A stretch of DNA of 64,000 bases from contig JAENYV010000001.1 of the NCBI GenBank assembly GCA_016841605.1, positions 355,540 to 419,539 on the forward strand. Direction: 5' to 3'. Positions 23,701 to 63,934 of the stretch are shown here, one piece after another. The first letter of the stretch is position 1; the number at the start of each line of letters is the position of its first letter. A program made the translations under genes and the position numbers. Origin of the DNA: Dethiobacter alkaliphilus. GTDB taxonomy: Bacteria > Bacillota > Dethiobacteria > DTU022 > UBA8154. The notes below the pieces were generated by a model, which saw only the letters and a program-made list of their open reading frames with translations, was not told where the DNA came from and searched no databases.

Positions 23701-23715
23701 AGAAGCAAAGAGAAG

Positions 23716-28239: not shown

Positions 28240-28263
28240 AATCCGACGAAAAGGAGGAATTAG

Positions 28264-28545: not shown

Positions 28546-28553
28546 CAGTTCCC

Positions 28554-28934: not shown

Positions 28935-28949
28935 GGGGTGACGCAATTC

Positions 28950-39124: not shown

Positions 39125-40840
39125 TTGCGGTTGCGAATTATTTGCCTGGTGCTTTTCTTAGGTATAATTATTTTTATTTTAGAGGCATTCTCCGGTCCTA
39201 TCAAACAAATCTTTGAAAACCATTTTCTGCTTAAGCAGCTGTTTCAATATCCATCTGACGGAGCGAAGGAACAAGAAGCCGGGGTCGAAGACCCCAAACT
39301 TTTGGAAACAATTTATGTTACCATCCTGGGGAATGATCCCCAGTACGGATATAGTTTTGAAGAAATGAACGGTTTAACTCGCGAGGAAAGTCTTGAAAAA
39401 GATCCGCAATTGCCCATATTATTTCAAACTGAATTAGAACCGTTAAATCTTGATGAAGCAGGAGTTGAAACATTAACCCCCAATGCTACTATTGAACAGC
39501 GTGGTCAAAGCACCCGGAGGGCTATTTTAAAATCTTATAAAATTAGATTAGCAAGAGAGTTGGAATTATGGAATAATCAGAGGATCATTAATTTAAATAA
39601 ACATCCGAATGATTTCACCTCGGTGCGAAACAAGCTGAGTTTTGATTATTTTAAGCTTATTCCAAACCTGGTTAGTTCAGAAACGCAATTTGTTCGATTA
39701 TACGTCAGAGATTTGACATCTGCTTCGGGTGATAAGAATTTTATCGATTACGGCCTTTTTACCCATACGGAACAAATAGATAAAGATTTCTTACGACGTC
39801 ATGGTTTGGATCAGGACGGGTATTTATATAAAGTGGTCAACTTTGAGTTTTACCGTTATCCGGAGCTTCTTCGCCCTCACTATGACCCTTTTTACGATAG
39901 GGGGAAATTTGAGACCATTTTAGCCATCAGAGGCAGGGAATACCATGATCATTTTCTCCAAATGCTGGATGACGTGAATAACTTTGCATTGGATTTTAAT
40001 CGGGTTTTTGAGAAGTATTTTGATAAAGATAATTTTCTTGTCTGGATCGCAGTAAATATGTTAATAGGTAACCTGGATTCATCTTCAAATAACTTTTATT
40101 TGTACAGTTCCAGGTTTTCCAATAAATGGTACTTTGTGCCATGGGATTATGATGGGGCGTGGGATTTTTACTGGCAGTGGAGTACAGATCCTAAAAAGCT
40201 TCATCCGACAAGAGAAGGTCTCTCCCTTTACTGGGGGTGGCCATTGGTCAGAAGATTTTTTCAACAACCGGAGAATCTGGCAGCCCTTAATGAAAAGATT
40301 GAAGAGGTAGCACTAATCATTACGGAAGAGCGGACGAAAGCCTTTCTGGACGAGTACTTTCCGATTGTTCGTCTCTTGACATTGCAATTACCTGATGTGC
40401 AATTGCTACCGCATAATATTGAAAGATTCGATGAAGAATATTACAGCCTGGTACAGGTTCCGGAAAAAAGACGTGAAAAATATTACACTCTTTTGCATAA
40501 ACCGATGCCTATTTTTGTAGGAGGGCCCTGGATTAATGAAGACCGGATGACCTTTACCTGGTGGGACTCTTTCAGCCTACAGGGAAATGAAATATATTAT
40601 GATCTGCAAATTAGTCATGATCCGGTTTTTTCTGTTTTGTATTTTGAAGTCAAGGATTTGCAGGATACCGCATGGACAATGGAGATACTCCCTGCAGGCA
40701 GCTATTATTGGAGAATTATCATTCATGACAGTCAAGGAAATAAACAAATTCCCTTTGAAAGTCTGACGGTTAATAATACGCTCTACCATGGGGTGAAAGC
40801 CTTTACTATTGAAGAGGGGGGAGTGCTCCATGGAATATGA
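39125..40840 (+). CDS. CotH-family secreted/anchored protein kinase-like protein with C-terminal Fn3-like domain
   Basis: A 571-residue protein with an N-terminal membrane anchor or signal (about residues 4-22). The CotH region (about 120-430) carries QRGQSTRRAILKSYKIRL, DGYLYKVVNFEFYR, FLVWIAVNMLIGNLDSSSNN and FVPWDYDGAWDFYW, matching the CotH kinase fold, which in Bacillus phosphorylates spore coat proteins. The last about 115 residues (from about 450) look like a fibronectin-type beta domain. CotH-like genes next to VTC and DUF4956 genes recur near exopolysaccharide loci, so its target here may be a surface or envelope protein rather than spore coat. The start is TTG 39125 with GAGGGAGC about 9 bases upstream. 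Confidence 0.8.
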   Translation: MRLRIICLVLFLGIIIFILEAFSGPIKQIFENHFLLKQLFQYPSDGAKEQEAGVEDPKLLETIYVTILGNDPQYGYSFEEMNGLTREESLEKDPQLPILFQTELEPLNLDEAGVETLTPNATIEQRGQSTRRAILKSYKIRLARELELWNNQRIINLNKHPNDFTSVRNKLSFDYFKLIPNLVSSETQFVRLYVRDLTSASGDKNFIDYGLFTHTEQIDKDFLRRHGLDQDGYLYKVVNFEFYRYPELLRPHYDPFYDRGKFETILAIRGREYHDHFLQMLDDVNNFALDFNRVFEKYFDKDNFLVWIAVNMLIGNLDSSSNNFYLYSSRFSNKWYFVPWDYDGAWDFYWQWSTDPKKLHPTREGLSLYWGWPLVRRFFQQPENLAALNEKIEEVALIITEERTKAFLDEYFPIVRLLTLQLPDVQLLPHNIERFDEEYYSLVQVPEKRREKYYTLLHKPMPIFVGGPWINEDRMTFTWWDSFSLQGNEIYYDLQISHDPVFSVLYFEVKDLQDTAWTMEILPAGSYYWRIIIHDSQGNKQIPFESLTVNNTLYHGVKAFTIEEGGVLHGI

Positions 40841-41540
40841 AGGGAAAAAACTGAGAAATGAATTAAAATATTATTTGCATCCTTTTGAGTGCTCTTCACT
40901 GCGGGTCAGGATGGGGCACTTGCTGCAAAGGGACCGTCATTCCGTAACTGCTGACGGTTATCATATTCGCAGCCTCTATTTTGATGATTTCCATGATAAT
41001 GCTTTGTTTGAGAAGAACTTCGGAATCATGAAAAGAAAGAAATACAGAATAAGAATCTATAACAAAACGGATCAATCAATTAAGCTTGAGCGCAAATCCA
41101 AGTATGGTGAATATATCAGTAAAGAGTCCGCATTCCTTTCGCGACGGGAATACGAGCAAATTATCACAGGAGATGCACAATTCCTGCTTGAGCACCGGGA
41201 ACCGTTACTTCACCAATTTTATTACGGAATTACTGTCCATGGATTGCGTCCCAAGGTGATCGTAGACTATACCCGGGAAGCCTATACCTGGCCGCTGGGA
41301 GATGTGAGAGTGACCTTCGACAAAGGACTGGCAACGGTGATTAACTCGTTGAACATATTTGATATCCATGCAGTTCCTGTCTGTGTTTTCCGTAAACCCA
41401 TGGAAATCATGGAAGTTAAGTATACTGAATTTCTTCCTGTTTTTATTCGGGAAGTACTGGATTTTAATTGTTCAATCCGGAAGGCAATTTCCAAATATGT
41501 AATTTGCAGGGAATTTTTAAAAAATCATTACCATAATTAA
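40830..41540 (+). CDS. VTC-domain (polyphosphate polymerase-like) protein
   Basis: A 236-residue protein of the VTC family, the tunnel-fold domain that makes polyphosphate in yeast Vtc4. Basic and acidic tunnel residues are visible: RNELKYYL at the start, YHIRSLYFDD, KYRIRIYNK, IKLERKSKYGEYISKES, KVIVDYTREAY, VRVTFD and IMEVKYTEFLP. These match the triphosphate-tunnel pattern of alternating charged strands. The bacterial function is unproven: NTP or polyphosphate binding is expected, activity is inferred. The real start is ATG 40830 behind GAGGGGGGAG; it overlaps the CotH gene by 11 bp, showing coupling. DUF4956 follows. Confidence 0.88.
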   Translation: MEYEGKKLRNELKYYLHPFECSSLRVRMGHLLQRDRHSVTADGYHIRSLYFDDFHDNALFEKNFGIMKRKKYRIRIYNKTDQSIKLERKSKYGEYISKESAFLSRREYEQIITGDAQFLLEHREPLLHQFYYGITVHGLRPKVIVDYTREAYTWPLGDVRVTFDKGLATVINSLNIFDIHAVPVCVFRKPMEIMEVKYTEFLPVFIREVLDFNCSIRKAISKYVICREFLKNHYHN

Positions 41541-41573
41541 CACAATTTAATACGGATAAAAGGGGGGAGAAAA

Positions 41574-42251
41574 ATGGATATGGAGCAATTTACCTTCCGG
41601 AATATTTTAGACACCAGGCTGATAAACGGCTTACAGCCGATTACATTGGTTGATGCTGCTTTTAGCTTGTTTATTGCCTTATTGCTCGGACTGTTTATCT
41701 TTTTCATTTATAAAAAATGTTTCCGCGGTGTTGTTTATAATTACAGTTTTAATCTAACCTTGGTGCTTATGGCGATGATTACTGCACTGATAATTTTAAC
41801 GATCAGTACCAACATTATTTTGTCATTGGGTATGGTCGGAGCTTTGAGTATCGTGCGATTTCGCACGGCAGTTAAAGATCCCATGGATATTGCCTTTACA
41901 TTTTGGGCTATTTCCGCAGGTATTGCTACAGGCGCCAAAATTTACCCCATTGCTGTTTTTGGTTCTTTAATTATTGGACTAACTGTTTTTCTGTTGGCAA
42001 GATATAAAGTGAAAGGGCAGGCCTATTTACTCATTGTTCATTATACGGAAAAGGGGGATTATGCTGTAAACTATCATATTACCAGATTAAAGCATACTCT
42101 TAAATCAAAAACAATACGCGAAGATCATACCGAGCTGGTCGTTGAAATGAAAATTAAAGACGACAATACGGATTTTGTTAAAGAATTGGCTGTCATCGAA
42201 GGTGTGAACGATGTTTCTCTGGTAAGTTATACGGGGGATTATGCTCCTTAA
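41574..42251 (+). CDS. DUF4956-family membrane protein
   Basis: A 225-residue integral membrane protein with about four helices in residues 25-165 and a cytoplasmic C-terminal domain (about 170-225, ferredoxin-like with KDDNTDFVKELAVIEGVNDV). The family signature LSLGMVGALSIVRFRTAVKDPMD in pattern lies between helices, with conserved Arg and Asp residues. Function is unknown; genes of this family travel with VTC and CotH genes, and the three are probably one module here. AGGGGGGAG provides the ribosome binding site, 33 bp after the VTC gene. Confidence 0.85.
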   Translation: MDMEQFTFRNILDTRLINGLQPITLVDAAFSLFIALLLGLFIFFIYKKCFRGVVYNYSFNLTLVLMAMITALIILTISTNIILSLGMVGALSIVRFRTAVKDPMDIAFTFWAISAGIATGAKIYPIAVFGSLIIGLTVFLLARYKVKGQAYLLIVHYTEKGDYAVNYHITRLKHTLKSKTIREDHTELVVEMKIKDDNTDFVKELAVIEGVNDVSLVSYTGDYAP

Positions 42252-42309
42252 GAATAGAGCGGCATGATCGGACATGATTGGATTAACATAAAATAAAAGA
42301 GTGTGTGCA

Positions 42310-44073
42310 ATGGAAAAACAATTAAAGGTACTGTTGACAACTGAAGGAACTTATCCCTTTCATCAGGGTGGAGTCAGCACATGGTGCGATATTCTGGTCA
42401 AGGGGCTGAAGAGTGTTAAGTACACTATCTTTAGCGTCTTAATGGATCCCTTTGTGACTCAGAAATATGAGTTGCCGGAAACGGTGACTCTGATTAAGAT
42501 GCCGTTATGGGGAACTGAGGAACCCAGCGAACATCTTCCCATATCTTTTTCGCAAACATTCTTATCAAAAAAACGAACTACCGCTCAGTCTATTAGAAAG
42601 TTCTTTATACCTTTATTTGAAGAGCTTGTTGAAGAGGTTATCAGTTCCGTAAAGAATCCTGAGCATCTGGCTCAGATTATGCTTGATCTGCACCTCTATT
42701 TTCAATATTACGAGTATAAAGTTAGCTTCAAGTCCGAAGAGGCCTGGGAAGCATACAAAAAAATAGTATTAAATTATGCGAAAGATAAGGACAGCCGCTT
42801 ATCCCGGCCGGATGTCTATTGTCTAATTCAGAGTCTGGGTTGGATTTACCGTTTTCTAAATATATTGAACACGCCGGTTCCTGACGTTGATGTTACCCAT
42901 TCCACGGCCGCGGCCTTTTGCGGTATCCCATGCGTCTTGTCCAAAATAAAGAATAAAACACCTTTTTTGCTGACGGAACACGGTGTCTATCTGCGTGAGC
43001 AATATCTGTATCTGTCAAAAAGAGAATATTCTTCTTTTTTAAATACATTTCTGATCCGTCTGGTGCATTCTATTACCAGTCTCAATTATGTGTATGCGGA
43101 TCAGGTCTCTCCGGTTTGCGCTTATAATACCAGATGGGAAAGGGAGTTCGGCATACCGGAAGAAAAAATTAAAGTTATTTACAATGGTATTGATAAAAAT
43201 GTTTTTTTACATGCGCCAGGTCAAAAACCGGCCCGTCCGACAGTGGTAACAGCAGCCCGTATAGACCCCGTCAAGGATATTGAAATGTTGATCAAAGGAG
43301 CAGCGCTGGTAAAAAAACAGATTCCCGATATCCTTTTTCTGATTTACGGTTCTATTTCTGTGCCGGCATATTACCGGCAGTGTATGGAATTACGTAAAAA
43401 ATTATTTCTTGAGGAAACAGTGATATTTGCCGGTCATACCACGAATATTGCTGCAACTTATAAAAGTTGTGATTTGGTCGCCTTGACGAGTATTTCCGAG
43501 GCTTTTCCTTATACGGTCCTGGAAGCCATGATGGCAGGAACTGCTGTAGTATCTACGGATGTGGGAGGAGTTAAAGAAGCATTGGGATCTACCGGGGTAC
43601 TGGTCCCGGTTAGAGATCATGAAAAACTTGCTGCCGAAATAATTCATTTATTGAAGGAGCCTGAACTACGGCTAACCTTGGGGAAAGAGGCGCAGGAGCG
43701 CGCCTTATCTCTTTTTACCATAGACAGGGTTTTACAAAACCATCTGCAGAGCTATGAGCATCTGTTGGAAGATATACTCCAAACGGAAGAGCAGTCAGCC
43801 GATGTCAACGGTTGGGAAACAGTTATCTCCTTAACTGATAAATTACCGGAGCAGAGAATGTGGGTCGAACGCGCTTTGGCCGTCAAAGTCGCAGGTTATT
43901 TTGACGAAGCAATTTACTGCTTTCGCTCCGCGGTCAATGTAAATCCCGCTTCTCAAGCGATACCAATATTGCTTTTAGAGCTGGCCGAAATGTACAATCA
44001 GTTGGGCCGGTACGATTTGGCTTTTCAGGAGATGGAAAAATATGTAATATATTATGAATTATTAATTGCTTAA
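42310..44073 (+). CDS. pelF: PelF-like GT4 glycosyltransferase
   Basis: PelF is the cytoplasmic glycosyltransferase that polymerises the Pel polysaccharide from UDP-sugars. The N-terminal signature LLTTEGTYPFHQGGVSTWCD closely matches PelF, and the GT-B C-terminal domain has AARIDPVKDIEMLIKGA, GHTTNIAATYKSCDLVALTS and the EAFPYTVLEAMMAGTAVV motif with the E-x7-E nucleotide-sugar site. It is 588 residues, about 80 longer than Pseudomonas PelF; the added C-terminus (about 515-588) looks like one or two TPR helices (YFDEAIYCFRSAVNVNP). The GTG at 42301 is in frame, but ATG 42310 is more likely. It opens the Pel-like part of this operon. Confidence 0.87.
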   Translation: MEKQLKVLLTTEGTYPFHQGGVSTWCDILVKGLKSVKYTIFSVLMDPFVTQKYELPETVTLIKMPLWGTEEPSEHLPISFSQTFLSKKRTTAQSIRKFFIPLFEELVEEVISSVKNPEHLAQIMLDLHLYFQYYEYKVSFKSEEAWEAYKKIVLNYAKDKDSRLSRPDVYCLIQSLGWIYRFLNILNTPVPDVDVTHSTAAAFCGIPCVLSKIKNKTPFLLTEHGVYLREQYLYLSKREYSSFLNTFLIRLVHSITSLNYVYADQVSPVCAYNTRWEREFGIPEEKIKVIYNGIDKNVFLHAPGQKPARPTVVTAARIDPVKDIEMLIKGAALVKKQIPDILFLIYGSISVPAYYRQCMELRKKLFLEETVIFAGHTTNIAATYKSCDLVALTSISEAFPYTVLEAMMAGTAVVSTDVGGVKEALGSTGVLVPVRDHEKLAAEIIHLLKEPELRLTLGKEAQERALSLFTIDRVLQNHLQSYEHLLEDILQTEEQSADVNGWETVISLTDKLPEQRMWVERALAVKVAGYFDEAIYCFRSAVNVNPASQAIPILLLELAEMYNQLGRYDLAFQEMEKYVIYYELLIA

Positions 44074-44105
44074 ACAGATTTATAATCGATGTGTGGTGAA
44101 GATGG

Positions 44106-45353
44106 ATGGCAGTAAAAATAGGTCGCTCCATTTGGGGTATCCAGCCCGGATCCTTTCATGAACTTCGCAAGTATTTGCAGACGAAGCATAGTCAACAGAA
44201 GGGGAGGTTATACCAATTAGTCCAGGATCTACAAAATGAAAATAAAAGAATACAGATGCGGATTGACTTTTTTTACTCGCCGGGTCCTGAGACATTTTTA
44301 GAAGCCAAATTGCCGGAAGTTCATGCCTCGCCGATTAGATGGGAAGAATCCTGGTTTGAAACACAATATCGTTTTACGATTCGTTTTAAAAAAAGTATAT
44401 TTGGCTTAAATAGTAAAAAGGTTAAGTTGTATCTCCGGCAGCTTTTAAAGATGCAACAGATTGATCTGGAGGAAAGCCGGCAGAAGCTTAATATATTGTC
44501 GGAAAAGCATAAAAAACTGCTGTTTGAGCTGTCTTCCCTCGAAAATATTTATAACGCTAATGCGGAGGAAGAAGCTGCAGCTTCGCTCCCTTTACCGGAA
44601 CAGGAAACAAATGAAGATAATGAAAATCTAGAAGACGAAGAAAACAGGGAAGAAGAAAAAGAAGAGATTAAGTTTCAGGAAAAGATGCGGGAACAATTTG
44701 AAGCCGAATGGAGAGAAAGATTGGAAGAACAAATCAAAGAACTTATGCTGCAGAAATTAAAAGGACAATTGTTGGTCGGAGGAGCGGAAGCGGGAGAAAA
44801 AGAAGAGTCCTGGATTGGAGACATTAAAGAACTAATGAAACAAAAAATATTAAAGGAGCAGAAGCAGAATGATGGTTATCATTCGAAAGTAATCGCCTCT
44901 CAACCCAAGGGGAAGCGTCGGAATATTTTCAGTTCTCCCACCACGTTTCCCAAGCTACGGTTAACAGTAAACGGTTCATCTTTTTGGGATGAAGATATTG
45001 AATCTTTATTGTCGCAGTACACTTGGGATGATGAGGATGGGGGCTTTTTCTCAGCACCCTCACCTTCTTTCCCACAGCCTGAAATAAAGGTGGAAAATGG
45101 TAACAACCATCAAGATTACCACATCGGATCCATAGAATCAAAAGGAAGCCCGGCGATTACCAATCAAGTCCACCTGCTCAAGAAAAAATACATTGTCGGT
45201 AAACTGGCAGGGAGCGACCTTAAAGATAGCGGTGGAAAGATGATTATTTCAAAAAACGAAGTTATTACGGAACAAGTGATGAATCAGGCTGAAGAGGAGG
45301 GAAAGCTGGCCGAGTTGATTGTCAACATGGTAATTCCCGGGTTAGGTGATTAA
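44106..45353 (+). CDS. Undescribed coiled-coil protein with DivIVA-like and PRC-barrel-like ends in the Pel-like operon
   Basis: I do not recognise this 415-residue soluble protein as a known Pel component. Two similar N-terminal stretches, IGRSIWGIQPGSFHELRKYL (about 5-24) and FKKSIFGLNSKKVKLYLRQL (about 93-112), resemble the membrane-targeting motif of DivIVA proteins, each followed by helix. A highly charged coiled coil (about 115-235, rich in Glu) and a low-complexity middle follow. The last about 60 residues (KKYIVGKLAGSDLKDSGGKM and the ITEQVMNQAEEEGKLAELIV region) resemble a PRC-barrel-like end domain. It may be a scaffold that organises the synthase. It lies 33 bp after the PelF-like gene and 2 bp before the PelG-like gene. 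Confidence 0.7.
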   Translation: MAVKIGRSIWGIQPGSFHELRKYLQTKHSQQKGRLYQLVQDLQNENKRIQMRIDFFYSPGPETFLEAKLPEVHASPIRWEESWFETQYRFTIRFKKSIFGLNSKKVKLYLRQLLKMQQIDLEESRQKLNILSEKHKKLLFELSSLENIYNANAEEEAAASLPLPEQETNEDNENLEDEENREEEKEEIKFQEKMREQFEAEWRERLEEQIKELMLQKLKGQLLVGGAEAGEKEESWIGDIKELMKQKILKEQKQNDGYHSKVIASQPKGKRRNIFSSPTTFPKLRLTVNGSSFWDEDIESLLSQYTWDDEDGGFFSAPSPSFPQPEIKVENGNNHQDYHIGSIESKGSPAITNQVHLLKKKYIVGKLAGSDLKDSGGKMIISKNEVITEQVMNQAEEEGKLAELIVNMVIPGLGD

Positions 45354-45355
45354 CT

Positions 45356-46969
45356 ATGGATGTATTTGAACCGGAAATCTTCAATGATGAAGGGGAAAAG
45401 CAGCAAAAACTAAACAGCCTGTTAAAACAAATCAAAGCCCTGCGTCTTCAACCGGAGGATCGCTACGAGATTGCCGCTTTACTTGAATCAATGGGATGGA
45501 ACGATGAGGGAGCACGGAAGAATTTCGGCGTTACTGATATCTTTGAACTGGCCTCCCAATTATGGGAGATCAGCAAATCGAATATTATTTTTTCTCCATT
45601 TCATCATATTGAGAAAACAGGTTTTGTTCAAGGGCTGTATTTGCTTATTTCCAACTTTTTAAGAGGTGTGATTTTTGCGCTGCCTATGGCAGTTTCCGTA
45701 TTTTCAATGATTACCTTGCGGTTTTCCCTCTGGTCTTATGAAAATTTATCGGTGGAACTAGCTACAGCTATTGCTATCGGCACAATTTTAAGCTTCGTAA
45801 CAGTTGGCGGTTTTATGCAGGCAATTGCCAGGCGCGGGTTTTTTTACATCACACAAAATTATTACGGTATGGCACGTAAGGTCACCTTTCAATTAATTAT
45901 AATCGGAATTTTTGCCTGCCTGGTCATTTCCGCCTGTTTATTTTTCGGAAATGCCCTTATTCAGCTCTTTCCATTCGGCCTGGTTCTCATAATTATTCTG
46001 TATTACTTTTTTTTAAACACTATCTGGTTATCTGTCACTGTTATGTATATTTTAAAAAAGGAGCTTGTTTTTACGGGTTTAATTATTATCGGAATCGGTA
46101 TTGTCTATCTGCTGTTTGTCGTATTTGCTTATAACATCATTTTTTCGCAACTGATCAGTTTGCTCCTGATTTCTTTAATGAGCATCGGTTTAGCTGTTTT
46201 CTATTTCAGAAGAGCGGAGGCCAAGGCAGAAAAAGGAATTGAACCGAAGCTTCCGAAAATGTCTGTGATGATTTATAATACGATGCCTTATTTTATCTAC
46301 GGTTTCTTGTATTTTGCCTTTTTATTTGTTGACCGGGTCATAGCCTGGTCTGTAAACAGCACTTTTTTGCCTTATCTTATTTGGTTTCGTGGAGATTATG
46401 AATTGGGTTTGGATTTTTCGTTACTGGTTTTATTAATTCCAATGGGTATTATTGAAGTACTCTTATTTAAACTGATGATAAATATTCAGCAGAGCCAAAA
46501 AAATTACTGGGGACAGGATATTGATAAAATGAACCGCGCCTATGTTCGGAAATATTTTCTTCGTTTATTTTTCATTTTTGTCGTTGCCATGTTTAGTGCC
46601 GTATTCCTGTATTATTATCTAGGTATATTTCTAGATAATATACATCCTGCATTAGGAAAGATTATTTATCAACATCCGGTAACTCATTTTGTCTTTATTT
46701 TTTCTTTGGCTTCTTATGGTTTTTTGTCTTTGGGGTTAATGAATTCCGTTACATTGTTTTCTTTATCCCAGCCCCAAAAAGTCAACAGAGCTATTACAAT
46801 TGCCTTGTTGGCAAATTTACTTGTAGGTTTCCTTTTGAGCCGTTGGTTCGGTTACAAGTTCGCTGTCATCGGTTTGATCACCGGATCAATAGTTTTTTTT
46901 ATTTTGTCATCACGGCAAGTTTATAAGGTCATGCGAAAACTGGATTATTACGTGTACTCCTCTTCGTGA
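45356..46969 (+). CDS. pelG: PelG-like polysaccharide transporter/flippase
   Basis: A 537-residue membrane protein with about twelve helices (from residue about 90 to 530), the size and topology of PelG, a MOP/MATE-related protein that moves Pel across the membrane with PelF. The GGFMQAIARRGFFYITQNYY region after the third helix corresponds to PelG by position. It differs from Pseudomonas PelG in having an N-terminal cytoplasmic extension of about 90 residues rather than starting with the short GIGFELRKL segment. It begins 2 bp after the coiled-coil gene, so translation is coupled. The call rests on topology, size and position next to PelF more than on strong motifs. Confidence 0.7.
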   Translation: MDVFEPEIFNDEGEKQQKLNSLLKQIKALRLQPEDRYEIAALLESMGWNDEGARKNFGVTDIFELASQLWEISKSNIIFSPFHHIEKTGFVQGLYLLISNFLRGVIFALPMAVSVFSMITLRFSLWSYENLSVELATAIAIGTILSFVTVGGFMQAIARRGFFYITQNYYGMARKVTFQLIIIGIFACLVISACLFFGNALIQLFPFGLVLIIILYYFFLNTIWLSVTVMYILKKELVFTGLIIIGIGIVYLLFVVFAYNIIFSQLISLLLISLMSIGLAVFYFRRAEAKAEKGIEPKLPKMSVMIYNTMPYFIYGFLYFAFLFVDRVIAWSVNSTFLPYLIWFRGDYELGLDFSLLVLLIPMGIIEVLLFKLMINIQQSQKNYWGQDIDKMNRAYVRKYFLRLFFIFVVAMFSAVFLYYYLGIFLDNIHPALGKIIYQHPVTHFVFIFSLASYGFLSLGLMNSVTLFSLSQPQKVNRAITIALLANLLVGFLLSRWFGYKFAVIGLITGSIVFFILSSRQVYKVMRKLDYYVYSSS

Positions 46970-46984
46970 AATGAGGAAAATAGT

Positions 46985-48787: not shown

Positions 48788-48809
48788 AATATGGAGTGTT
48801 TGGCGATAA

Positions 48810-51451: not shown

Positions 51452-51516
51452 CAATTCCATCATAGACTGTAGAGAGTATCTTCATGGAAAAATGAAGACA
51501 AGGGTGGGTTGGTTTT

Positions 51517-52419: not shown

Positions 52420-52455
52420 CGAGCCAAAAGCCGCCGGATGGCGGCTTTTGGCTCG
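52420..52455. terminator. 16-bp perfect hairpin terminator after the Pel-like operon
   Basis: CGAGCCAAAAGCCGCC (52420-52435) pairs perfectly with its inverse at 52440-52455 around GGAT. The inner AAAAGCCGCC/GGCGGCTTTT core is a classic intrinsic terminator able to act in both directions. Confidence 0.85.
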
Positions 52456-52471
52456 CTTATGGTTAATTTCA

Positions 52472-52502
52472 GGTCGGCAGAACTCCTGTTACGGCCTTTT
52501 TT
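52472..52502 (+). terminator. Second terminator, similar to the one at 31167
   Basis: GGTCG-GCAG (52472-52480) pairs with CTGT and CGGCC (to 52496) using wobble pairs, and six T follow (52497-52502). Its flanks TTTCAGG and loop AGAAC match the che terminator, so the same terminator cassette occurs twice about 21 kb apart. Confidence 0.7.
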
Positions 52503-52694
52503 ATTTACTTTTTATGGAAATTAATATCTTTTTGAATATTTTTAATCACATCTTGCCGTATATCGATAAAATAAGGTAAAATATCCATACTTATGTTAAA
52601 TAAGCAAAAGAAATAAATGAATAATTAATACATGGTGCTAAAATATATATTGTAAAAATGTCGAAAGTTGTAATAAAATGTATAAGGTGATTAA

Positions 52695-54736: not shown

Positions 54737-56357
54737 GCTCTTTTGTTTCTTCTTATTTTTTTACTTGTTTCAGCTACCCTTTTCTGCTTCAGCTTTCGTG
54801 TCTGTGAGCGGAGATGAGACGAAAAAAGCCCTGCTTCTTTATGAAGCGGAACACCGTTTCGGCGACCCCTATCCACTGATTGACGCCCTGGAGGAACTGC
54901 TGGGACACTTTAGCCTGCAGGTGAAGTCGCTGCCCCGATCCAAATGGAAAAAAGGGATGCTGTTGCCTTATAATCTGGTTATTTACCTCGGCACGGAAAA
55001 AGCATCTCTGCCTTCGGAGTTTTTACAAGAAACTGCAGAGGTTCCCTCTTTGCTGTGGCTGGAAGAGAATATAGAGCAACTGGCAGCCTTTCGCCAGTGG
55101 TCTGATTTTACTTTTAAAGGCAGCCATGGTTACATGAGAAGTTTGGAATACAAAGGGATCAGTATAGATTTGAGGGATGATGTGGCTTTGCCGCTAATTG
55201 ACCCTGGCCCGGGGGCGGTAATTATTGCCTTTATGGAAGATGGGGCTGCAAAGGTGCCATTTGCCTGGCAGAAGGAAAATCTTTATTATTCAGCAAGGCT
55301 GTATGTAGATATTCCCCAAAGTGCTCTCCTGACGGATATATTGCACGAAATCTGCTCGGAAGAGCATACGGAGAGACAACAGATCCTGCTGAGTATTGAT
55401 GACATTAATCCTTTTTCCGATCCCGAGGGAGTTTTCCGTCTTATTGATACAGTAGCGGAAGATAGCCTTCCTTTTGCCTTAAAAGTAACCCCTGCTGTTC
55501 AGTGGCGAGGCGATCTTATTACTCTGGAGGATAAACCCGAACTGTCCGCTGTCCTGCTCCAGGCAACACAGATGGGTGCCGCTATTATTCAAAAAGGAAC
55601 TGAGCTCCGATCGGACAGGTCAGCCTCATTGTTAGAAGAAACCGAATTTTGGAATTTCAAAGAAGATTCTTCTCTTCCCTTGAGCGAAGAGGATGTCAGG
55701 GAAAAAATAGAGCTGGGCTTGGAGATTTTTATGGGAAGCTCTCTCTATCCTGTTGCTTTTGAGGTGCCCGGTTATGCTGTTTCCGGGGAAGGCTACAGGG
55801 TGCTTGCGGAGTATTTTACTTCTTTATCCGGACGTGTTCTTCTTTCCGACAGCAGCTCAGACCTGGTCATGGATCTGCCCTATGTCTCCTTTTCGCCCCG
55901 GGCAGGTATGTGGGTATATCCGCATACTATTATGTGTAATCCGGGCGACCAGATCTCCAGAGAAAAAATGTTGATGGATATCAGGCGGTTCCTTTTGCTG
56001 CGGGATGCCTTTGTGGGGATTTCCTTCTCTTCCCACACTTCGCCGGGATATCTGGCCTTAATCATTGAAAGGCTCAAGCCGCTGGGCTTTGATTTCGCGG
56101 ATTTGCGCACAATTTCCGTTCAAGGAAATTCTCAAATTCAAAGCCCGGTCAGTCAGGGGATATTTCATAACATGGCTCAGGAAATGCCGGCGGAAAATCC
56201 GGTAGGGAAATCATTTCTTACAAGTCTTCTGGAGATATTTTTATTTATCATCGGAATGATTATTCTTATATTCCTGATTATTGTGAGGTCACTGCAGAGA
56301 AATCGTAATAGATTGTATGAAGAATCATCGAAGGGAAAGGTTGCCGGCAATGAATAA
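54696..56357 (+). CDS. DUF2334-like (polysaccharide-deacetylase-fold) membrane-anchored protein lacking metal histidines
   Basis: A 553-residue protein with an N-terminal signal (about 10-33), a large extracytoplasmic region and a C-terminal membrane helix (about 515-540). Residues about 215-470 follow the DUF2334 pattern: LLSIDDINPFSDPEGV, ALKVTPAVQ, then TEFWNFKED and FEVPGYAVSGEGY. Deacetylases of this fold need an HGxxH-type motif; here that place reads IIQKGTELR, so the zinc site seems lost. It may bind rather than modify the polymer. The ATG at 54696 overlaps the GGDEF-like gene by 41 bp; TTG 54723 would shorten the overlap and give a more typical signal peptide. Confidence 0.72.
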   Translation: MTRPKKITGLRLVKLFCFFLFFYLFQLPFSASAFVSVSGDETKKALLLYEAEHRFGDPYPLIDALEELLGHFSLQVKSLPRSKWKKGMLLPYNLVIYLGTEKASLPSEFLQETAEVPSLLWLEENIEQLAAFRQWSDFTFKGSHGYMRSLEYKGISIDLRDDVALPLIDPGPGAVIIAFMEDGAAKVPFAWQKENLYYSARLYVDIPQSALLTDILHEICSEEHTERQQILLSIDDINPFSDPEGVFRLIDTVAEDSLPFALKVTPAVQWRGDLITLEDKPELSAVLLQATQMGAAIIQKGTELRSDRSASLLEETEFWNFKEDSSLPLSEEDVREKIELGLEIFMGSSLYPVAFEVPGYAVSGEGYRVLAEYFTSLSGRVLLSDSSSDLVMDLPYVSFSPRAGMWVYPHTIMCNPGDQISREKMLMDIRRFLLLRDAFVGISFSSHTSPGYLALIIERLKPLGFDFADLRTISVQGNSQIQSPVSQGIFHNMAQEMPAENPVGKSFLTSLLEIFLFIIGMIILIFLIIVRSLQRNRNRLYEESSKGKVAGNE

Positions 56358-57615
56358 TTATACTGTACTGGATATCTTTTTTTTGACTTGCTTACTGACT
56401 ACCTGGCTAATGCTTCTTTATCAGGTAATTTTATGCTTTGCCGGTTATCGTGCTTTTTTAAAGTCTTTCACTGAAGGAGAGATAAATGAGGAGGGAACCA
56501 TCAACCTGCCGCCTGTAAGTATCCTTGTGCCGGCCCACAATGAGGAAGTGGTCATCGGCCGAACTGTGGAAGCATTGATGCAATTGGAGTACCCCCACGC
56601 AAAACTGGAGATTGTCATTATCAATGACAGCTCTACGGATCGCACCGGTGCTATTCTGGCGGAAAAACAGGTTAAGTATCCGGCTTTAAAGGTCTTAACC
56701 ATTGAGCCACCGGTTGGCGGCAAGGGTAAGTCCCGTGCTTTAAACGAGGCCTTAAAAATAGTAACGGGCGAATTGATCGCTGTTTATGATGCGGACAACA
56801 TGCCCGAGCGTATGGCGCTCATCAACCTGGTACGGGTGATTATGAGTTCTCCTGATCTGGGTGCGGTAGTGGGCAAATTCCGGACACATAACGTAAACAG
56901 TAATTTGCTGACGCGTTTTATCAATATTGAAACTCTAAGCTTCCAGGGTCTTGTGCAGGCGGGCCGCTGCCATCTCTTCGGCCTGACAACCATTCCGGGA
57001 ACAAACTTTGTCGTGCGCCGCCGGATTCTAGAGCAACTCGGGGGCTGGAATCCGGATGCTTTAACGGAAGATACGGAATTGACCATCCGCATCTATAACG
57101 AAGGATATTTAATCAAGTATGTTCCTGAGTCTGTTACCTGGGAGGAAGAACCGGAAACAATGCGAACCTGGATTAAACAACGTACGCGTTGGGTGCAGGG
57201 AAACATCTGGGTTATCGGGCATGGTATTCTCAATCTTCACCGCATGAATAGCACCAGGATAATCTGGGATATTATCTATTTTTTTTGTATTTACGTGGTT
57301 TTCTTCCTCTCTGTGCTGATCTCCGATTTTATTTTTATCCTGGGCTTGCTCGGCGTATCAAGTATTACCATTAAAGGCCCTTTGCTTTTGATCTGGTTTC
57401 TTGCTTTTGCCCTTTTTATCGTAGAGATGTTTATCTCTCTTACTTTTGAAAGGGGCGAAGGCAACTTGAAAAACTTTTTGCTGGTCAGCATCATGTATTT
57501 TACATATTGTCAGTTATGGTTGATTGTGGTTTTCAGAGCGAATTGGATGATGTTGAAAAGAGCACTTACCGGTGCCGCATTCTACTGGGATAAAACAGAA
57601 AGGATCGCGCGATGA
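56350..57615 (+). CDS. BcsA-like GT2 exopolysaccharide synthase without PilZ domain
   Basis: A processive family 2 glycosyltransferase of about 421 residues. One N-terminal helix pair (about 6-30), then the GT-A domain with LVPAHNEE, INDSSTDRT, VYDADNMPE (DxD-type), TEDTELTIRI (TED) and the polymer-binding KQRTRWVQG (Q/RxxRW), then three C-terminal membrane helices. It resembles the synthases of cellulose and poly-N-acetylglucosamine, but has no C-terminal PilZ domain, so direct c-di-GMP activation as in BcsA is not expected. AAAGG at 56337-56341 supports ATG 56350; the upstream ATG at 56317 lies further inside the preceding gene. BcsB follows with a 4-bp overlap. Confidence 0.88.
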   Translation: MNNYTVLDIFFLTCLLTTWLMLLYQVILCFAGYRAFLKSFTEGEINEEGTINLPPVSILVPAHNEEVVIGRTVEALMQLEYPHAKLEIVIINDSSTDRTGAILAEKQVKYPALKVLTIEPPVGGKGKSRALNEALKIVTGELIAVYDADNMPERMALINLVRVIMSSPDLGAVVGKFRTHNVNSNLLTRFINIETLSFQGLVQAGRCHLFGLTTIPGTNFVVRRRILEQLGGWNPDALTEDTELTIRIYNEGYLIKYVPESVTWEEEPETMRTWIKQRTRWVQGNIWVIGHGILNLHRMNSTRIIWDIIYFFCIYVVFFLSVLISDFIFILGLLGVSSITIKGPLLLIWFLAFALFIVEMFISLTFERGEGNLKNFLLVSIMYFTYCQLWLIVVFRANWMMLKRALTGAAFYWDKTERIAR

Positions 57616-59759
57616 ATAAAGCACATTTCTTTGTTCGGATTCAGGTTTTTTTGCTGGCACTTCTTATACTGTCGGGTTTACATGTAACGGTTGCAGCCGG
57701 AGAGGAGACGCCGTCAGGGGCGGCTGATGTGCCGGCAGATGAGAGCATAGTGAACAATGAAGCGGCAGATGACGTTGTTTATAATATCTCTTTATTTTCT
57801 GACGACCAGCCTCTGCTGAACCCCATCAATGATGTTTTTTCTTACTTTACCTTACCGCCCGGAGTGAAATTGCTCTCTCCTTCATACATCGAAGTAATAT
57901 ACAGCCATTCTTCTACTATTATTAATGAATTATCGGTTCTCACCGTCGTTGTCAACGGTTTGCCTCTGGAGAGCAGGCATGTTGTGCAGAATGAAGAGGG
58001 GCGCAGTGTACGTCTTATTTGGAAAATCGAACTGCCTCCGGAACAAATTAAGGAAGGCATCAATGAGATCGGCATCAAGAGCAGACACCGTTCTGTTGAA
58101 GGGTTATGCAGCGACCTGGATAACGATGCCAACTGGATTCTGATCCATGACGATACCAATCTCCATTTGAAAACAAGGAGAACTAAAACTTATTTACGCG
58201 ATTATCCTTATCCCTTCCTGGACGATCTTTCGCCAAGCCTGCTGGATGCATGCTGGCATCTGCCGCCTGACCCGCAGCCGGAAGAAATTGAGGTTATGTT
58301 GCAACTGGTCAGCGATTTGGGCCGCGGGGAACCGTATCGGCAGATGAATTCCTTTGATGTTTTTAGTTCCGGGAAAACTCCTCAGGGGAAAAAAGAAATA
58401 ATTATCGGCACAGTTGATCGCTGGGCTGACCAGTCTGATTTGCAATTGCCCGCGGGCGTGGGGGCTTTGCAGTTTGTTCCAAAAGGAGAAAACAGCGCTG
58501 CCGCAAGGTTGCTGGTAACCGGCAGTGATCAAGAAGGGCTTTCCAAGGCGCAGAGCTATTTGACAACGGAAAAATTGCTTGCACAGATTGAAGAGAACCG
58601 GCTGTTGATTAAACAGTGGCCGCCGGAAGAACCCCTTCCCCAACCTCTGGGGCGCCCCGGCAGCTATACTTTTGAGGAGCTGGGTTATCCTTATATTTCC
58701 CTGGACGGGGCTTTTCGCCAGGTAACCAGTGTGGTCCTCAAGAGGCCTCTCAATTGGGGTATCGGCCGGGGATCTTACACGGAGATCCGTTTCCGCCATT
58801 CAGCCGTTTTAAATCCGGAGCGGTCGGTCCTGACAATTTATATTAATGGGCGCCCGGTCAACAGTGTTGCCCTTAACCAAAGCAATGCGGAAGGAGGTGT
58901 TCTCCGGGCGGAATTTCCCGTCGAAGAACTGCAAAAGTCGGAATGGGTGGTCAGCCTGGTTTTCTATCATCATTTGACCAATGTTGATTGCTCCAAGCGT
59001 TACGGTGATATTGCCTGGTCTGTTGTTGAAGGAGATTCATTTATTTACCTGGCACCAGGTAAAACCGGAGGTTACCCCTCTCTGGATAACCTGCCCCACC
59101 TTCAGGAAGTGAATAATGCAGCCGAGCAGCCGGTAACCATGTGGCTTTCCGCGAATCCCAGCGACCGACAGCTTAGCCTGGCCGCGATGCTGGCAGCCAG
59201 AGCGGGACAGATAAACCGCCTGCCGCTCAGGTGGCATGTCGTCCTGGGAGAAGACCTGGAGCAGGCTGACCTGCCTTCCACACCTGTGATCATGATCGGT
59301 TATTCCGATGAAGAAAGCCGATTGGCCTTGTTCAAGGAAAAACTAATTCTCTCGCCCGACCTTCCGCAGGGCTACAAGGCCATGGAAGAAATGCCCCTCC
59401 TCCCCGATAGAGTGGCTGATGCAGCCATATTACAGGCCCTCAGGTCTCCGTGGAACAAAAACACAGTGCTTTACTCCATTTTAGGAAATGATGATGGCCA
59501 TCTGGATGCCCTCGGGAAAGTATTGACAGATACTAAGCTCTCCTCTCAGATAAGCGGGCAATTATGCCTTATTTCCCCTGCCGGTTTCGTCTCCTCTTTC
59601 ACCTCCCAGGAGGGGGAAAAAGGTCTTAAACCGGGGATTGTGGACTCTGTCATCCAATTTGTCCAGAAAGGGGGGGCGTGGAAAATTTACGCCCTGGTTA
59701 TGATGATCGTACTGCTGGGAATAGGACTTTCCCTGTGGATCGCTGGGAAGCGTTCCTGA
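57612..59759 (+). CDS. bcsB: BcsB-family exopolysaccharide synthase subunit
   Basis: BcsB is the extracytoplasmic partner that guides the nascent chain from the synthase. The 715-residue protein has a signal peptide (about 5-30), two repeats of a carbohydrate-binding-like plus flavodoxin-like unit (VVVNGLPLESRHV near 115 and IYINGRPVNSVAL near 415; RLLVTGSDQEGLSKAQSYL near 305), HHLTNVDCSKRYGDIAW near 455, and a single C-terminal membrane helix (about 693-713). Gram-positive relatives occur in C. difficile-type ccs loci. The ATGA overlap with the GT2 gene shows coupling and supports a two-protein synthase core. Confidence 0.9.
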   Translation: MNKAHFFVRIQVFLLALLILSGLHVTVAAGEETPSGAADVPADESIVNNEAADDVVYNISLFSDDQPLLNPINDVFSYFTLPPGVKLLSPSYIEVIYSHSSTIINELSVLTVVVNGLPLESRHVVQNEEGRSVRLIWKIELPPEQIKEGINEIGIKSRHRSVEGLCSDLDNDANWILIHDDTNLHLKTRRTKTYLRDYPYPFLDDLSPSLLDACWHLPPDPQPEEIEVMLQLVSDLGRGEPYRQMNSFDVFSSGKTPQGKKEIIIGTVDRWADQSDLQLPAGVGALQFVPKGENSAAARLLVTGSDQEGLSKAQSYLTTEKLLAQIEENRLLIKQWPPEEPLPQPLGRPGSYTFEELGYPYISLDGAFRQVTSVVLKRPLNWGIGRGSYTEIRFRHSAVLNPERSVLTIYINGRPVNSVALNQSNAEGGVLRAEFPVEELQKSEWVVSLVFYHHLTNVDCSKRYGDIAWSVVEGDSFIYLAPGKTGGYPSLDNLPHLQEVNNAAEQPVTMWLSANPSDRQLSLAAMLAARAGQINRLPLRWHVVLGEDLEQADLPSTPVIMIGYSDEESRLALFKEKLILSPDLPQGYKAMEEMPLLPDRVADAAILQALRSPWNKNTVLYSILGNDDGHLDALGKVLTDTKLSSQISGQLCLISPAGFVSSFTSQEGEKGLKPGIVDSVIQFVQKGGAWKIYALVMMIVLLGIGLSLWIAGKRS

Positions 59760-59777
59760 ACATAGAGATGGGAGGAA

Positions 59778-60137: not shown

Positions 60138-60247
60138 GAAAATTTTAAGTTATCTTGTATTTCCTTTGAAGGAAAATTATAAAATATAGAGAATTGTATT
60201 ATTGGATGCAATTACCAAATTTTTTATTATTAAAGAAGGTCTCTGTC

Positions 60248-63200
60248 ATGATGTTTTTAAGGAAGAGAAAAAGAGAGCCCCTGGGCTTGATTTTTGTACT
60301 CCTGCTCATTCTGTTCCCATACATGGTTTTACTGCCCGCAGTAACGATAAATGCCCAAGCAGCTTCGTCTGAAATTCTTTCGTCTGAAATGCCGCCTTTT
60401 GCTAGCAGCAATGAAACCCAGCCGGAAAACGAAACAACTCAGTTTAGTTCGACTATCCCGCAGAATAATCAGAATGGCCAGGAAAGAACAGAATGCACAG
60501 TTGAAGAATATATTTATGCAGTTGAAGAATATGTTTATGCTGATAATAGCGGAGATAATATTATAAACTTTCCCGATTCTGCCGATTCAACGGTGTTTCC
60601 CATGGAAGAGCCAAATCTCCATGCATGTATACCTTTTTTTGAAGAAACATTTTTCAATAAATCTCTGCAGGATAACCATATTGTCGACCCTCAGGGAGAT
60701 GTTGTCTGGGATATCAAAACCGCCAGGGAAGAGGATAGCGCCAATGCCGACAATATGATTACTCCCGGCGGTGCCTTACTGCTTTCCGGAACCCGCTATC
60801 GTCAAAGCGCGGTATTAAGTGAAAATGCATGGCCTAATCAGCAAAACTATGCCATGGAATTCACCATTAACGTGCAAAATAATAGTAATGAAGGGCATAA
60901 TGAACGACCGATAGCAACTATTATTCCACGATCTAAAGATACTGATTTAACCGAGTACTATGCGGTCATTTATTATTTGGAGACAAAGCATTTGGGGGCA
61001 ATTGTCGCAAATCTTTTTCAGTGTAAGTGGGCAATTGTAAACACAGCGGCACCGACAAAAATGGAGCCACTGGTTGAAGGCTATTTTATGATGAGAGAGA
61101 ATACCGATTATACAGGACGGTTAATTATCACAAATACTCCGGAGGAGAATGTGAATATCAAATTTTTTCTTGACGGCCCGACCAATCCGCTGGATGAATA
61201 TACTCCTTTGCTGGAATATACGGATTCTTCACCCTTTAAAATACTTACAGGGGCAACAGGACCGGCATATGGGACGACCGGCTATGCCGATGATTCCTGG
61301 GGGTATTCTCCTGCTGTCCAATATGACAACATCAAACTCTATGAGCCTGAAGAATTTACCGCATTGGAAGGTTTGCTCAAAGAAAATGTGCAGCTCAGAC
61401 CCCAGGATATTCCGGAGGGAGAAGATTATAACAAGATTAAATATTTACTTAACAGGGGCCTGGTTGAACTTTATGAGGACAATACTTTCCGGCCGGATAG
61501 CCATGTTTCTGTGGGAGAATTTGTCTACATGCTTGTTGCCTTAGAAGATGAGAAATATCCTGAAGAAAAAAGCCGCGGGTTGCAAGATTATATTTATAAC
61601 CTGCCGGTTTCAAAATACCAGGTCGCGGCCATGATAACGGATTATATGGGGGATCCGGTAGCAGATCCTCTCTATATGCCGTTGATTAAGGACGGTATTC
61701 CGCCCGACTTTCAAAACGCCGTTCATTATACCTTTCAGGAAGGCTTTTTGAGGTTAGATGAAGATTTTCAATTTAACGGCGATCAATTAATCACCAGATA
61801 TGAAGCTGTGGATATTTTGCTAAGATTACTGCATGAAGGCTTTCGAAAAGTAAACTATGCTTTAGAATTGCCGCATATCCTCTCATCAGGAGCAGTATTA
61901 CAACGAGACAAAAAAATTCCCATCTGGGGCAGAGGTTTTACCGGAGAAACAATTACTGTTGAATTTAAAAACCAGGTCAAAACGACAGTTGTAAGAAACG
62001 GTTACTGGTACCTGGAACTTGATCCCGAACCCTCCGGCAGTCCTTATACCTTAATTGTTCGTAATACGGTGCAACAAATTATCCTGGAGGATATTCATGT
62101 GGGTGAAGTATTTATCGTGGGGGGGCAATCTAATGCGGAGATGTTCTTACGCGATACTTACGGGGCGGAAGCAACAAAAGAAAACCTCTCCGGTAAATCC
62201 GACCTGCGCTTTTATACTTCGGAAAAGCTAATTGCAGTTACTCCGAATTTTACAAGTAAGGGGCAATGGTATCCAGCCTATAATTGGATGCTTGATTGGT
62301 CGCCGGCAATCGGTACCTATTTCGTTGAAAAAATTCTCGAGTTGAACGATGAATTAGCAAATGTACCGATAGGCATTATACGGCTATCTTACGGCGGAAG
62401 CACTATTGAACTTTTTATGCCCAGGGCGATTACTGAAGAAATGGACTTTGTTCAAAAAGATGATGAACCCATTATGTCGGGGTACTGGAACGGTTTTATG
62501 GATGCAGTTGCACCCTATGCCGTCAAGGGGATGATATATTATCAAGGCGAAAACAGCACCCAGCTTGGTTATGATTACGAGTTATTGCTCAGGGACTATT
62601 TGCGGGGAATCAGGATCGAATTCCAGGATCCTGATTTGCCCATCATGCTGGTACAGTTGGCAGGTTATGGAGAGAATTATTACGAAACGGATATTGACAG
62701 CTGGCCGGTAATTCGGGAAGTTCAACACAGGGTTGCAAACACTACTGACAATACGGGGCTGGTAACAGCGGTTGATCTGTCCGATCCCGATCCTTTAGAG
62801 ATTCATCCGCGAGAGAAAAAAGAAATAGGTTGCCGGCTGGCATATCTGGCAATGGATATGATTTATGAGAAGGATCTCAAGCAGAGAAGTCCGGAAATGA
62901 AACATTTCTTAATTAAAAATAACAAGGTAATCATCGATTTTGCTTATGTTTATTCCCGGCTTTTTTTTAAAAATGATATGGCCGGAGGCTTCGAAATTCT
63001 TGATAACGAGGGCAGATGGCATGCCGCTGAGGCGAAAATAAACCCGGATAATACCGTTGAAATCCGGCATGAAGACATACCGGAACCACAGGGAGCCAGA
63101 TATGCCTGGCACAACTATCCGGATATCAGTCTTTTCCAACAACCAAATTTGCCTGTCCTCCCTTTTAATACTACGGTAACAATGGAAAAGAAACCGTTGG

Positions 63201-63934
63201 TTGGGACTGGAGATAGAACAATTACACTTTTTTTCCATGGGCTTAACGACTATGACGGCATTGTTAACGCAACAAGAGGAAATCGGTTTAGAATGATCGA
63301 GAGAAAGGATATCTACACGATTTTTCATGAATTTACAATAGAAGGGCAAACTGCCGGCGACACGATATATACATTTCTGAGACTACTACCCAACGTAACA
63401 GCTCAACAGGGCACAACAAGCACATCTCTTATCATACCGGACCATGGTCTTTCTGAAGGAGACTGGATCAGGAACAATGATAGAGGCTGGGAGCCGCGCC
63501 GGGTAAATGCTGTCCCAGACAAAAATACGATAGAGATAGAAACAATTGCAGGGCAAAGTGAAGGTGATGAAATTGAAAGATATCTTTTTAAAGAAAAAAG
63601 AACCGCCCAGGCTCTAAGAATACAAGATGAATGTTTTATCGCCACTGCTGCTTTTGGTTCGAAGATGAGTCCGGCTGTAGCTTTGCTTCGCCAGTTCCGG
63701 GACGATAAGCTTCTTACCAACAGACCCGGCCGGACTATCGTAAACTTTTATTACAGTGTATCTCCACCAATAGCTGAATTTATTGCCGGCAGTTATCTCC
63801 TCAAGGCAATAATGAGAGTCATCCTTCTGCCTGTTATTGTGACGGCATATCTGCTTTTGCACCCGGAATTGCTGTGTCTCCTTATCGTGCCGGCCTGTCT
63901 GGTCTTATACCGCCGGAGGAGGAATTTAATTTGA
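60248..63934 (+). CDS. Giant surface protein: LamG-like, SLH, SASA-type acetylesterase, CFI-box C-terminus
   Basis: A 1228-residue exported protein. Order: basic N-terminus and signal (about 10-38); Asn/Glu-rich linker; LamG/jelly-roll-like domain (about 125-365, ending VQYDNIKLYEPEE); SLH repeats (about 385-540; LLNRGLVELYEDNTFRPDSH); a small Ig-like strand region (ILSSGAVLQRDKKIPIWG); a sialate-O-acetylesterase-type SGNH domain (about 620-860) with nucleophile Ser628 in VGGQSNAEM, LSYGGSTIE, YYQGENST and EIHPREKKE; beta domains; and the last about 100 residues with ECFIATAAFGS (Cys1129), a helix pair and an RRRR end: the CFI-box C-terminal signal. It should sit on the cell surface and may deacetylate the polymer made by this operon. 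AAGAAGGT supports ATG 60248; the TTG at 60194 does not have a ribosome binding site. Confidence 0.85.
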   Translation: MMFLRKRKREPLGLIFVLLLILFPYMVLLPAVTINAQAASSEILSSEMPPFASSNETQPENETTQFSSTIPQNNQNGQERTECTVEEYIYAVEEYVYADNSGDNIINFPDSADSTVFPMEEPNLHACIPFFEETFFNKSLQDNHIVDPQGDVVWDIKTAREEDSANADNMITPGGALLLSGTRYRQSAVLSENAWPNQQNYAMEFTINVQNNSNEGHNERPIATIIPRSKDTDLTEYYAVIYYLETKHLGAIVANLFQCKWAIVNTAAPTKMEPLVEGYFMMRENTDYTGRLIITNTPEENVNIKFFLDGPTNPLDEYTPLLEYTDSSPFKILTGATGPAYGTTGYADDSWGYSPAVQYDNIKLYEPEEFTALEGLLKENVQLRPQDIPEGEDYNKIKYLLNRGLVELYEDNTFRPDSHVSVGEFVYMLVALEDEKYPEEKSRGLQDYIYNLPVSKYQVAAMITDYMGDPVADPLYMPLIKDGIPPDFQNAVHYTFQEGFLRLDEDFQFNGDQLITRYEAVDILLRLLHEGFRKVNYALELPHILSSGAVLQRDKKIPIWGRGFTGETITVEFKNQVKTTVVRNGYWYLELDPEPSGSPYTLIVRNTVQQIILEDIHVGEVFIVGGQSNAEMFLRDTYGAEATKENLSGKSDLRFYTSEKLIAVTPNFTSKGQWYPAYNWMLDWSPAIGTYFVEKILELNDELANVPIGIIRLSYGGSTIELFMPRAITEEMDFVQKDDEPIMSGYWNGFMDAVAPYAVKGMIYYQGENSTQLGYDYELLLRDYLRGIRIEFQDPDLPIMLVQLAGYGENYYETDIDSWPVIREVQHRVANTTDNTGLVTAVDLSDPDPLEIHPREKKEIGCRLAYLAMDMIYEKDLKQRSPEMKHFLIKNNKVIIDFAYVYSRLFFKNDMAGGFEILDNEGRWHAAEAKINPDNTVEIRHEDIPEPQGARYAWHNYPDISLFQQPNLPVLPFNTTVTMEKKPLVGTGDRTITLFFHGLNDYDGIVNATRGNRFRMIERKDIYTIFHEFTIEGQTAGDTIYTFLRLLPNVTAQQGTTSTSLIIPDHGLSEGDWIRNNDRGWEPRRVNAVPDKNTIEIETIAGQSEGDEIERYLFKEKRTAQALRIQDECFIATAAFGSKMSPAVALLRQFRDDKLLTNRPGRTIVNFYYSVSPPIAEFIAGSYLLKAIMRVILLPVIVTAYLLLHPELLCLLIVPACLVLYRRRRNLI

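Follow-up and report, generated by a model that had tools for sequence, protein, structure and literature searches.

How is a Pel-like exopolysaccharide synthase regulated when its locus carries no PelD? The question is raised by a 64,000-nucleotide stretch of the Dethiobacter alkaliphilus genome (contig JAENYV010000001.1, forward-strand positions 355,540 to 419,539), referred to below as the window, in which two polymer loci lie next to each other, each with its own end: a Pel-like locus (39125–52419) and a yda-type locus (52695–59759). PelD regulates Pel synthesis post-translationally, and cyclic diguanosine monophosphate (c-di-GMP) binds to its degenerate GGDEF domain (PMC7112168). As compared with the canonical Gram-positive pelDEADAFG locus, the Pel-like locus lacks PelD, and it also lacks PelE and the PelA deacetylase. 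We consider it probable that the locus at 39125–52419 encodes a second type of Pel-like (PelF/PelG) synthase in which a GAF-GAF-HD-GYP protein, anchored in the membrane and without c-di-GMP-hydrolyzing activity any more, stands in for PelD. Judged from its sequence, this HD-GYP protein is most likely a PelD substitute, a candidate receptor for c-di-GMP that uses a dead HD-GYP domain.

The pseudo-HD-GYP receptor candidate (619 residues; 48810–50669, + strand) was assigned from an HD_5 match (E=1e-30), GAF matches in its orthologues, a comparison of motifs and a fold match. It comprises a transmembrane segment (residues 11–29), two GAF domains, a degenerate HD-GYP domain (residues 371–536) and a Cys-rich tail (residues 561–609). 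When the HD-GYP residues are mapped onto PmGH (4MCW), metal ligands are seen to be lost at E185 (Y382 in the window protein), H189 (Y386), H221 (S418), D222 (N419) and D305 (Q500), the first of these being a position that is variable also among canonical HD-GYP members. Further catalytic residues are lost at K225 (V422) and D308 (I503). On the + strand, the first metal-ligand motif reads YTIGYSE, including Y386 (49953–49973), the HDxGK motif is replaced by SNIGV (50055–50075), and DxxDA is replaced by QTFIA, followed by K505 and the retained R509, Y511 and R512 (50301–50348); the HHExxDGxGYP motif, in contrast, is intact (HHHERIDGHGYP, residues 470–481, 50217–50252). The protein thus has one of the hallmarks of an active HD-GYP phosphodiesterase, HHExxDGxGYP, and lacks HDxGK and the full set of metal ligands. 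The first-pass annotation had described the domain as one with its metal ligands lost and GYP kept, which holds for GYP and for most of the ligands (HD to SN), but the loss is not total because three metal-ligand histidines remain (H250, H276 and H277 of PmGH; H447, H471 and H472 here). The Cys-rich tail (50490–50636) has the pattern CW...C...C...CWE...C..H...C..C and is modeled without confidence; it is possibly a metal or redox site.

Elsewhere in the phylum, other taxonomic families have full-length orthologues (~24–33% identity) with transmembrane, GAF and HD-GYP regions in common. The family, with 17 members, is monophyletic and lies on one side of a branch with support of 100/98 that separates it from PmGH and the genome's own canonical HD-GYP proteins. 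All 17 have lost the lysine of HDxGK (K225), which is Met in 15 of them, and 17/17 have also lost the second Asp of DxxDA (D308); each is retained in nine of a canonical set of 10. In PmGH, the substitutions K225A and D308A abolish hydrolysis with the same impact as mutations of metal ligands, whereas mutants in GYP, R314 and K317 are still active (PMC4159591). The loss of K225 is part of a reciprocal exchange: in 14/17 members, K225 has become Met and Met/Leu310 has become Lys/Arg, whereas 9/10 canonical proteins have K225 with Met or Leu at 310. In terms of motifs, HDxGK becomes HDxGM and DxxDA(M/L) becomes DxxNA(K/R), at positions corresponding to residues 422 and 505 of the window protein. 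Most members retain H189, H221, D222, H250, H276, H277 and an acidic residue at D305; ligands are lost in three, namely the window protein (H189, H221, D222 and D305), L047 (H221) and L046 (H189). The ligand loss of the window protein is derived, since the ligands are intact in the four proteins nearest to it. K225 and D308, both required for activity in PmGH, are gone from every member, so that the predicted dead state is a property of the family and the loss of metal ligands is a later step. Y480, I489, R509, Y511 and R512 are retained in 16–17 of the 17. On sequence grounds, the family appears to have lost catalysis and to be still able to bind a ligand, the window copy having gone a step further.

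These conserved changes also bear on two other explanations. It had been anticipated that intact catalytic residues in close homologues would mark the degeneration as chance decay; the outcome is divided, in that metal ligands are present in the nearest homologues, whereas K225 and D308 are missing from all of them. Chance decay of an ordinary phosphodiesterase without any function in the locus would fit a ligand loss that arose within a clade of five, on a long branch, while other members retain the ligands. It is nevertheless very improbable, since the open reading frame (ORF) is intact and overlaps the following GH114 gene by one base, the whole architecture and the tail are conserved, and 15/17 members are associated with GH114 and 15/17 with PelF/PelG loci. 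Alternatively, the family could be a local phosphodiesterase with an altered site (K225M, D308N and the new Lys at L/M310) that depletes c-di-GMP, or else a different cyclic dinucleotide, at the synthase, the window copy being a member that has decayed further and is kept for its structure. The metal ligands that most members still have are consistent with this, and the reciprocal Lys/Met change resembles a remodeled site rather than decay; we regard this explanation as unlikely, as the K225A and D308A substitutions inactivate PmGH and the window protein, L046 and L047 have lost ligands yet remain in the family.

The HD-GYP model is well predicted over roughly residues 365–545, the Cys-rich tail is not, and a full-length AlphaFold model made without an alignment had a pLDDT of 36. 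Membership in the HD-GYP family is evident both from the HD_5 profile and from the fold, with Z scores of 22.6–23.9 to DvhD, PmGH and PA4781. The top match of the model is DvhD of Desulfovibrio vulgaris (Foldseek E=6e-10; Z 23.9), a degenerate HD-GYP protein (HD to SQ) that binds c-di-GMP without hydrolysis and in which the stalk helices splay upon binding (PMC13090378). The retained Y480, I489, R509, Y511 and R512 correspond to Y285, I294, R314 and K317 of PmGH and to Y621, R650 and Y652 of DvhD. The window protein has the same residue at four of the eight canonical-site contacts of DvhD (Y523, Y621, R650 and Y652), and it has Tyr in place of L577 and Lys in place of M646. The two proteins (PMC13090378; DvhD structures 9RBZ and 9RC0) are thus alike as membrane proteins with a degenerate HD-GYP domain (SQ in DvhD, SN here) and nucleotide contacts that are partly common. 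They differ in that DvhD has a periplasmic dCache domain and a PAS domain and controls a protease and adhesins, whereas the window protein has GAF domains and accompanies an exopolysaccharide synthase, and the HH pair is lost in DvhD and kept in the window protein. A second precedent is PA2572 of Pseudomonas aeruginosa, a YN-GYP protein in which the HD pair is also replaced, with no detectable hydrolysis and a regulatory role; unlike the window protein, it is a response regulator outside any exopolysaccharide locus (PMC3411652).

The same residues help to weigh a further explanation, in which the HD-GYP domain is a mere scaffold or dimerization module and signal sensing falls to the GAF domains or the Cys-rich tail, without c-di-GMP. 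The tandem GAF domains and the presence of the tail in 13/17 members would suit such a role, as would the streptococcal PelD that lacks its GGDEF domain in a locus that nevertheless persists (PMC7112168). The conservation of nucleotide-side residues where catalytic residues are lost and the precedent of DvhD both argue against it, and we consider the scaffold explanation improbable, more so than an altered phosphodiesterase.

The assignment of the HD-GYP protein to the role of PelD draws on its association with one clade of PelF. In a 398-genome sample of one phylum, PelF was found through PF11997 in 20/398 genomes, and its flanks were read in 18: nine with a long divergent PelF (type 2) and nine of the canonical kind (type 1), the type-1 genomes G345 and G352 being left out. 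A member of the HD-GYP family is near PelF in 9/9 type-2 genomes and, within the stretch read, in 0/9 type-1 genomes; when each taxonomic family is counted once, the figures are 7/7 and 0/7 (Fisher p=6e-4). Four members, in G382, G294, G476 and G441, were found only through reading the PelF flanks. PelF and HD-GYP genes are ~10 kb apart or less in most type-2 loci and 12–17 kb apart in G340, G361 and G379, for which, because of this distance, we infer that the two belong to the same locus. In a PelF tree of 23 sequences, all HD-GYP loci (14/14) fall on one side of a branch with support of 100/100, opposite nine canonical PelF rows with none. Profiles for PelD, PelE, the PelA deacetylase (DUF2194) and the Pfam-type PelG match type-1 loci only, and a type-2 PelG profile matches type-2 loci only. 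Searched by sequence, the candidate PelD proteins of the type-1 loci matched no PelD structure; they are identified by their position and by their epimerase and GAF domains, following PMC7112168. Scanning genome contigs with the window HD-GYP protein as the single query returned ordinary HD-GYP proteins only, and a scan of viral contigs gave no match.

As compared with Gram-positive pelDEADAFG loci (PMC7112168), the window locus has in common PelF, a PelG-like exporter, GalE, a gene resembling the PelA hydrolase and the optional CotH-VTC-DUF4956 module, and its HD-GYP protein resembles Bacillus cereus PelD in being a membrane protein that combines GAF with a dead domain of a c-di-GMP enzyme. 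It differs in the absence of PelD, PelE and PelA deacetylase, in a sensor domain that is HD-GYP and not GGDEF, in PelF and PelG proteins that belong to separate deep clades, and in its additional multi-transmembrane and coiled-coil proteins. An HD-GYP protein in the pelD position is not described in the accessible parts of two surveys of Gram-positive pel loci, which cover PelD variants and, in one, the CotH module; a text search of the literature, subscription papers and supplements aside, found no other report of one.

Several points weigh against a PelD-like receptor in this locus. The survey covers one phylum and, for type-1 loci, flanks of about 10 kb; its cut-offs could hide more distant members. 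Whole-protein homology to PelD was sought and rejected, there being only a weak GAF-level match, so that functional equivalence to PelD rests on position and co-occurrence. The active HD-GYP proteins PmGH (Z 23.2) and PA4781 (Z 22.6) match the model about equally well, and because they are about as close as DvhD, the fold leaves activity undecided. Two DvhD contacts, K582 and E668, are replaced in the window protein (by F441 and A527), which also lies on a long branch (0.85), and the family members that keep their metal ligands might bind metal and retain an altered activity.

If the HD-GYP protein is the receptor, c-di-GMP made elsewhere in the cell would bind to the dead HD-GYP site, and binding would move the helices that link this domain to the GAF domains and the membrane, as in DvhD. 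The signal would then pass through the GAF/stalk region to the membrane and switch on the PelF/PelG machine post-translationally. A broader proposal, to which we give even chances, is that of a deep second Pel-type lineage with a dedicated family of dead HD-GYP proteins that bind c-di-GMP and have the signature HDxGM...DxxNAK and, as a rule, a Cys-rich tail, control having arisen twice from opposite enzyme classes. In a mutually exclusive lineage, the opposite class of c-di-GMP enzyme would have been reused convergently for the job of PelD, and what is known from one receptor, DvhD, would be extended to a family linked to polymer synthesis. The presence of such a protein in every type-2 locus found points to a second, unrecognized wiring of c-di-GMP to biofilm polymer synthesis, and the motifs give a sequence signature for Pel-like loci that are missed by PelD- or PelG-based searches.

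The c-di-GMP itself is probably made and degraded elsewhere in the cell, because there are 17 GGDEF and 15 HD_5 matches genome-wide and only one of each is inside the window. Both of these are degenerate, and Pfam scans of the other main window ORFs found no EAL, GGDEF, HD-GYP or PilZ domain, in agreement with the first-pass annotation, which had noted no active cyclase or phosphodiesterase here. No Rfam family, riboswitches included, reached threshold anywhere in the window, and therefore no known c-di-GMP riboswitch is present there at threshold.

The genes of the Pel-like locus are all on the + strand, overlapping or separated by short gaps, in the order CotH, VTC, DUF4956, PelF, coiled-coil, PelG-like, multi-transmembrane, HD-GYP, GH114 and GalE. 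The first three encode a CotH-like kinase domain protein (39125–40840; Pfam CotH E=3e-53; 39% identity to the CotH of the canonical locus L068), a polyphosphate polymerase-like VTC accessory protein (40809–41540; Pfam VTC E=3e-35; 48% identity to L068) and an accessory DUF4956 membrane protein (41574–42251; Pfam DUF4956 E=1e-10; 53% identity to L068). Elsewhere in this survey, the module (39125–42251) is found only beside type-1 pel loci; its location here on a type-2 core makes the window locus a hybrid and suggests module exchange. The PelF-type GT4 glycosyltransferase (590 residues; 42301–44073; DUF3492 E=1e-39) has a TPR-like end, falls in the divergent type-2 clade of the tree and scores 160 bits with NCBIfam PelF (NF038011), above the cut-off of 100. 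It is followed by a coiled-coil protein (44106–45353) with no Pfam match, of which the C-terminal 50–100 residues are conserved in other type-2 loci. The type-2 PelG-like multi-transmembrane exporter (537 residues; 45356–46969) has 44–49% identity to most type-2 relatives; it has no match to Pfam PelG (PF16933), and hhalign aligns it with PelG over the full length as a remote match (probability 73%, E=3e-5). The multi-transmembrane protein at 46985–48787 has no Pfam match and has homologues in other type-2 loci; it is perhaps a GT-C glycosyltransferase. After the HD-GYP gene come a GH114-type glycoside hydrolase (50669–51451; GH114 E=1e-8), its start overlapping the preceding stop, and a GalE-type UDP-sugar epimerase (51517–52419; Epimerase E=1e-59), for which GalE proteins at 46–47% identity lie within L040 and L041. 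The GH114 protein has no evident signal peptide in the window or in L006, L007, L008, L039, L041, L076, L077 and L079, although the expected polymer substrate is extracellular. A search for PelF in 60 relatives and for the HD-GYP protein in 98 genomes of the class gave no strong match, and the genome, at 4.07 Mb, is larger than those of its two congeners (2.1–2.4 Mb); the Pel-like locus may have been acquired horizontally.

A terminator-like hairpin of 16 pairs (52420–52455, + strand) ends the Pel-like locus within the 275-base gap before the yda-type locus. The proposal that the two loci form one linked or paired system was rejected: this strong hairpin lies between them, most genomes have only one of the loci, and the one further genome in which both were observed, G100, has them on different contigs. 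What does stand is the observation that each locus has its own in-operon protein with a predicted-dead c-di-GMP domain, one HD-GYP and one GGDEF, the degeneration being conserved across distant genomes in both families.

The second locus is an ordinary ydaJKLMN-type operon of a known kind, without novelty, and includes a predicted YdaK-type I-site receptor. In Bacillus subtilis, YdaK is the c-di-GMP receptor of ydaJKLMN; it binds via the I-site, and polymer production depends on it (PMC7064775, PMC5422440). The window genes, all on the + strand, encode a YdaJ-like protein (52695–53879), homologues of which lie upstream of YdaK in relatives; a YdaK-type degenerate GGDEF membrane protein (286 residues; 53876–54736; GGDEF E=9e-17; 16-locus alignment); a YdaL-like DUF2334, deacetylase-like protein (54696–56357; DUF2334 E=2e-20); a YdaM-like GT2 (56317–57615; Pfam GT2 matches; up to 59% identity in relatives); and a YdaN-like BcsB-family protein (57612–59759; BcsB E=7e-39). 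Of 16 related loci, 13 have the order J-K-L-M-N, and one of these 13 is truncated by a contig end. As had been described in the first-pass annotation, the YdaK-like protein has lost its active site (GGDEF to EDNSI, residues 212–216, 54509–54523) and kept RxxD (RKVD, residues 203–206, 54482–54493); in the alignment of YdaK proteins, RxxD is retained in all 17 rows and the GGDEF position is degenerate in all. The absence of PilZ from the GT2 was likewise borne out by Pfam, and the locus therefore lacks the GT2 with PilZ that marks the BcsA of a Bcs cellulose synthase. It had been called Bcs-like; it does have a BcsB-family gene, but it is better named yda-type, with gene order, DUF2334, GT2 and BcsB-like proteins, degenerate GGDEF and intact RxxD I-site all as in B. 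subtilis ydaJKLMN (PMC7064775, PMC5422440). As far as seen, the two differ in sequence divergence only, and in the window the operon is followed by a small protein and a SASA esterase/SLH surface protein (1246 residues; 60194–63934) with a C-terminal CFIATAAFG motif and a hydrophobic tail. The window also contains a chemotaxis-type cluster (18918–31070) that encodes CheR, CheB, a methyl-accepting chemotaxis protein and a CheA-like kinase with a CheW domain, with SpoIIE-type phosphatases nearby.

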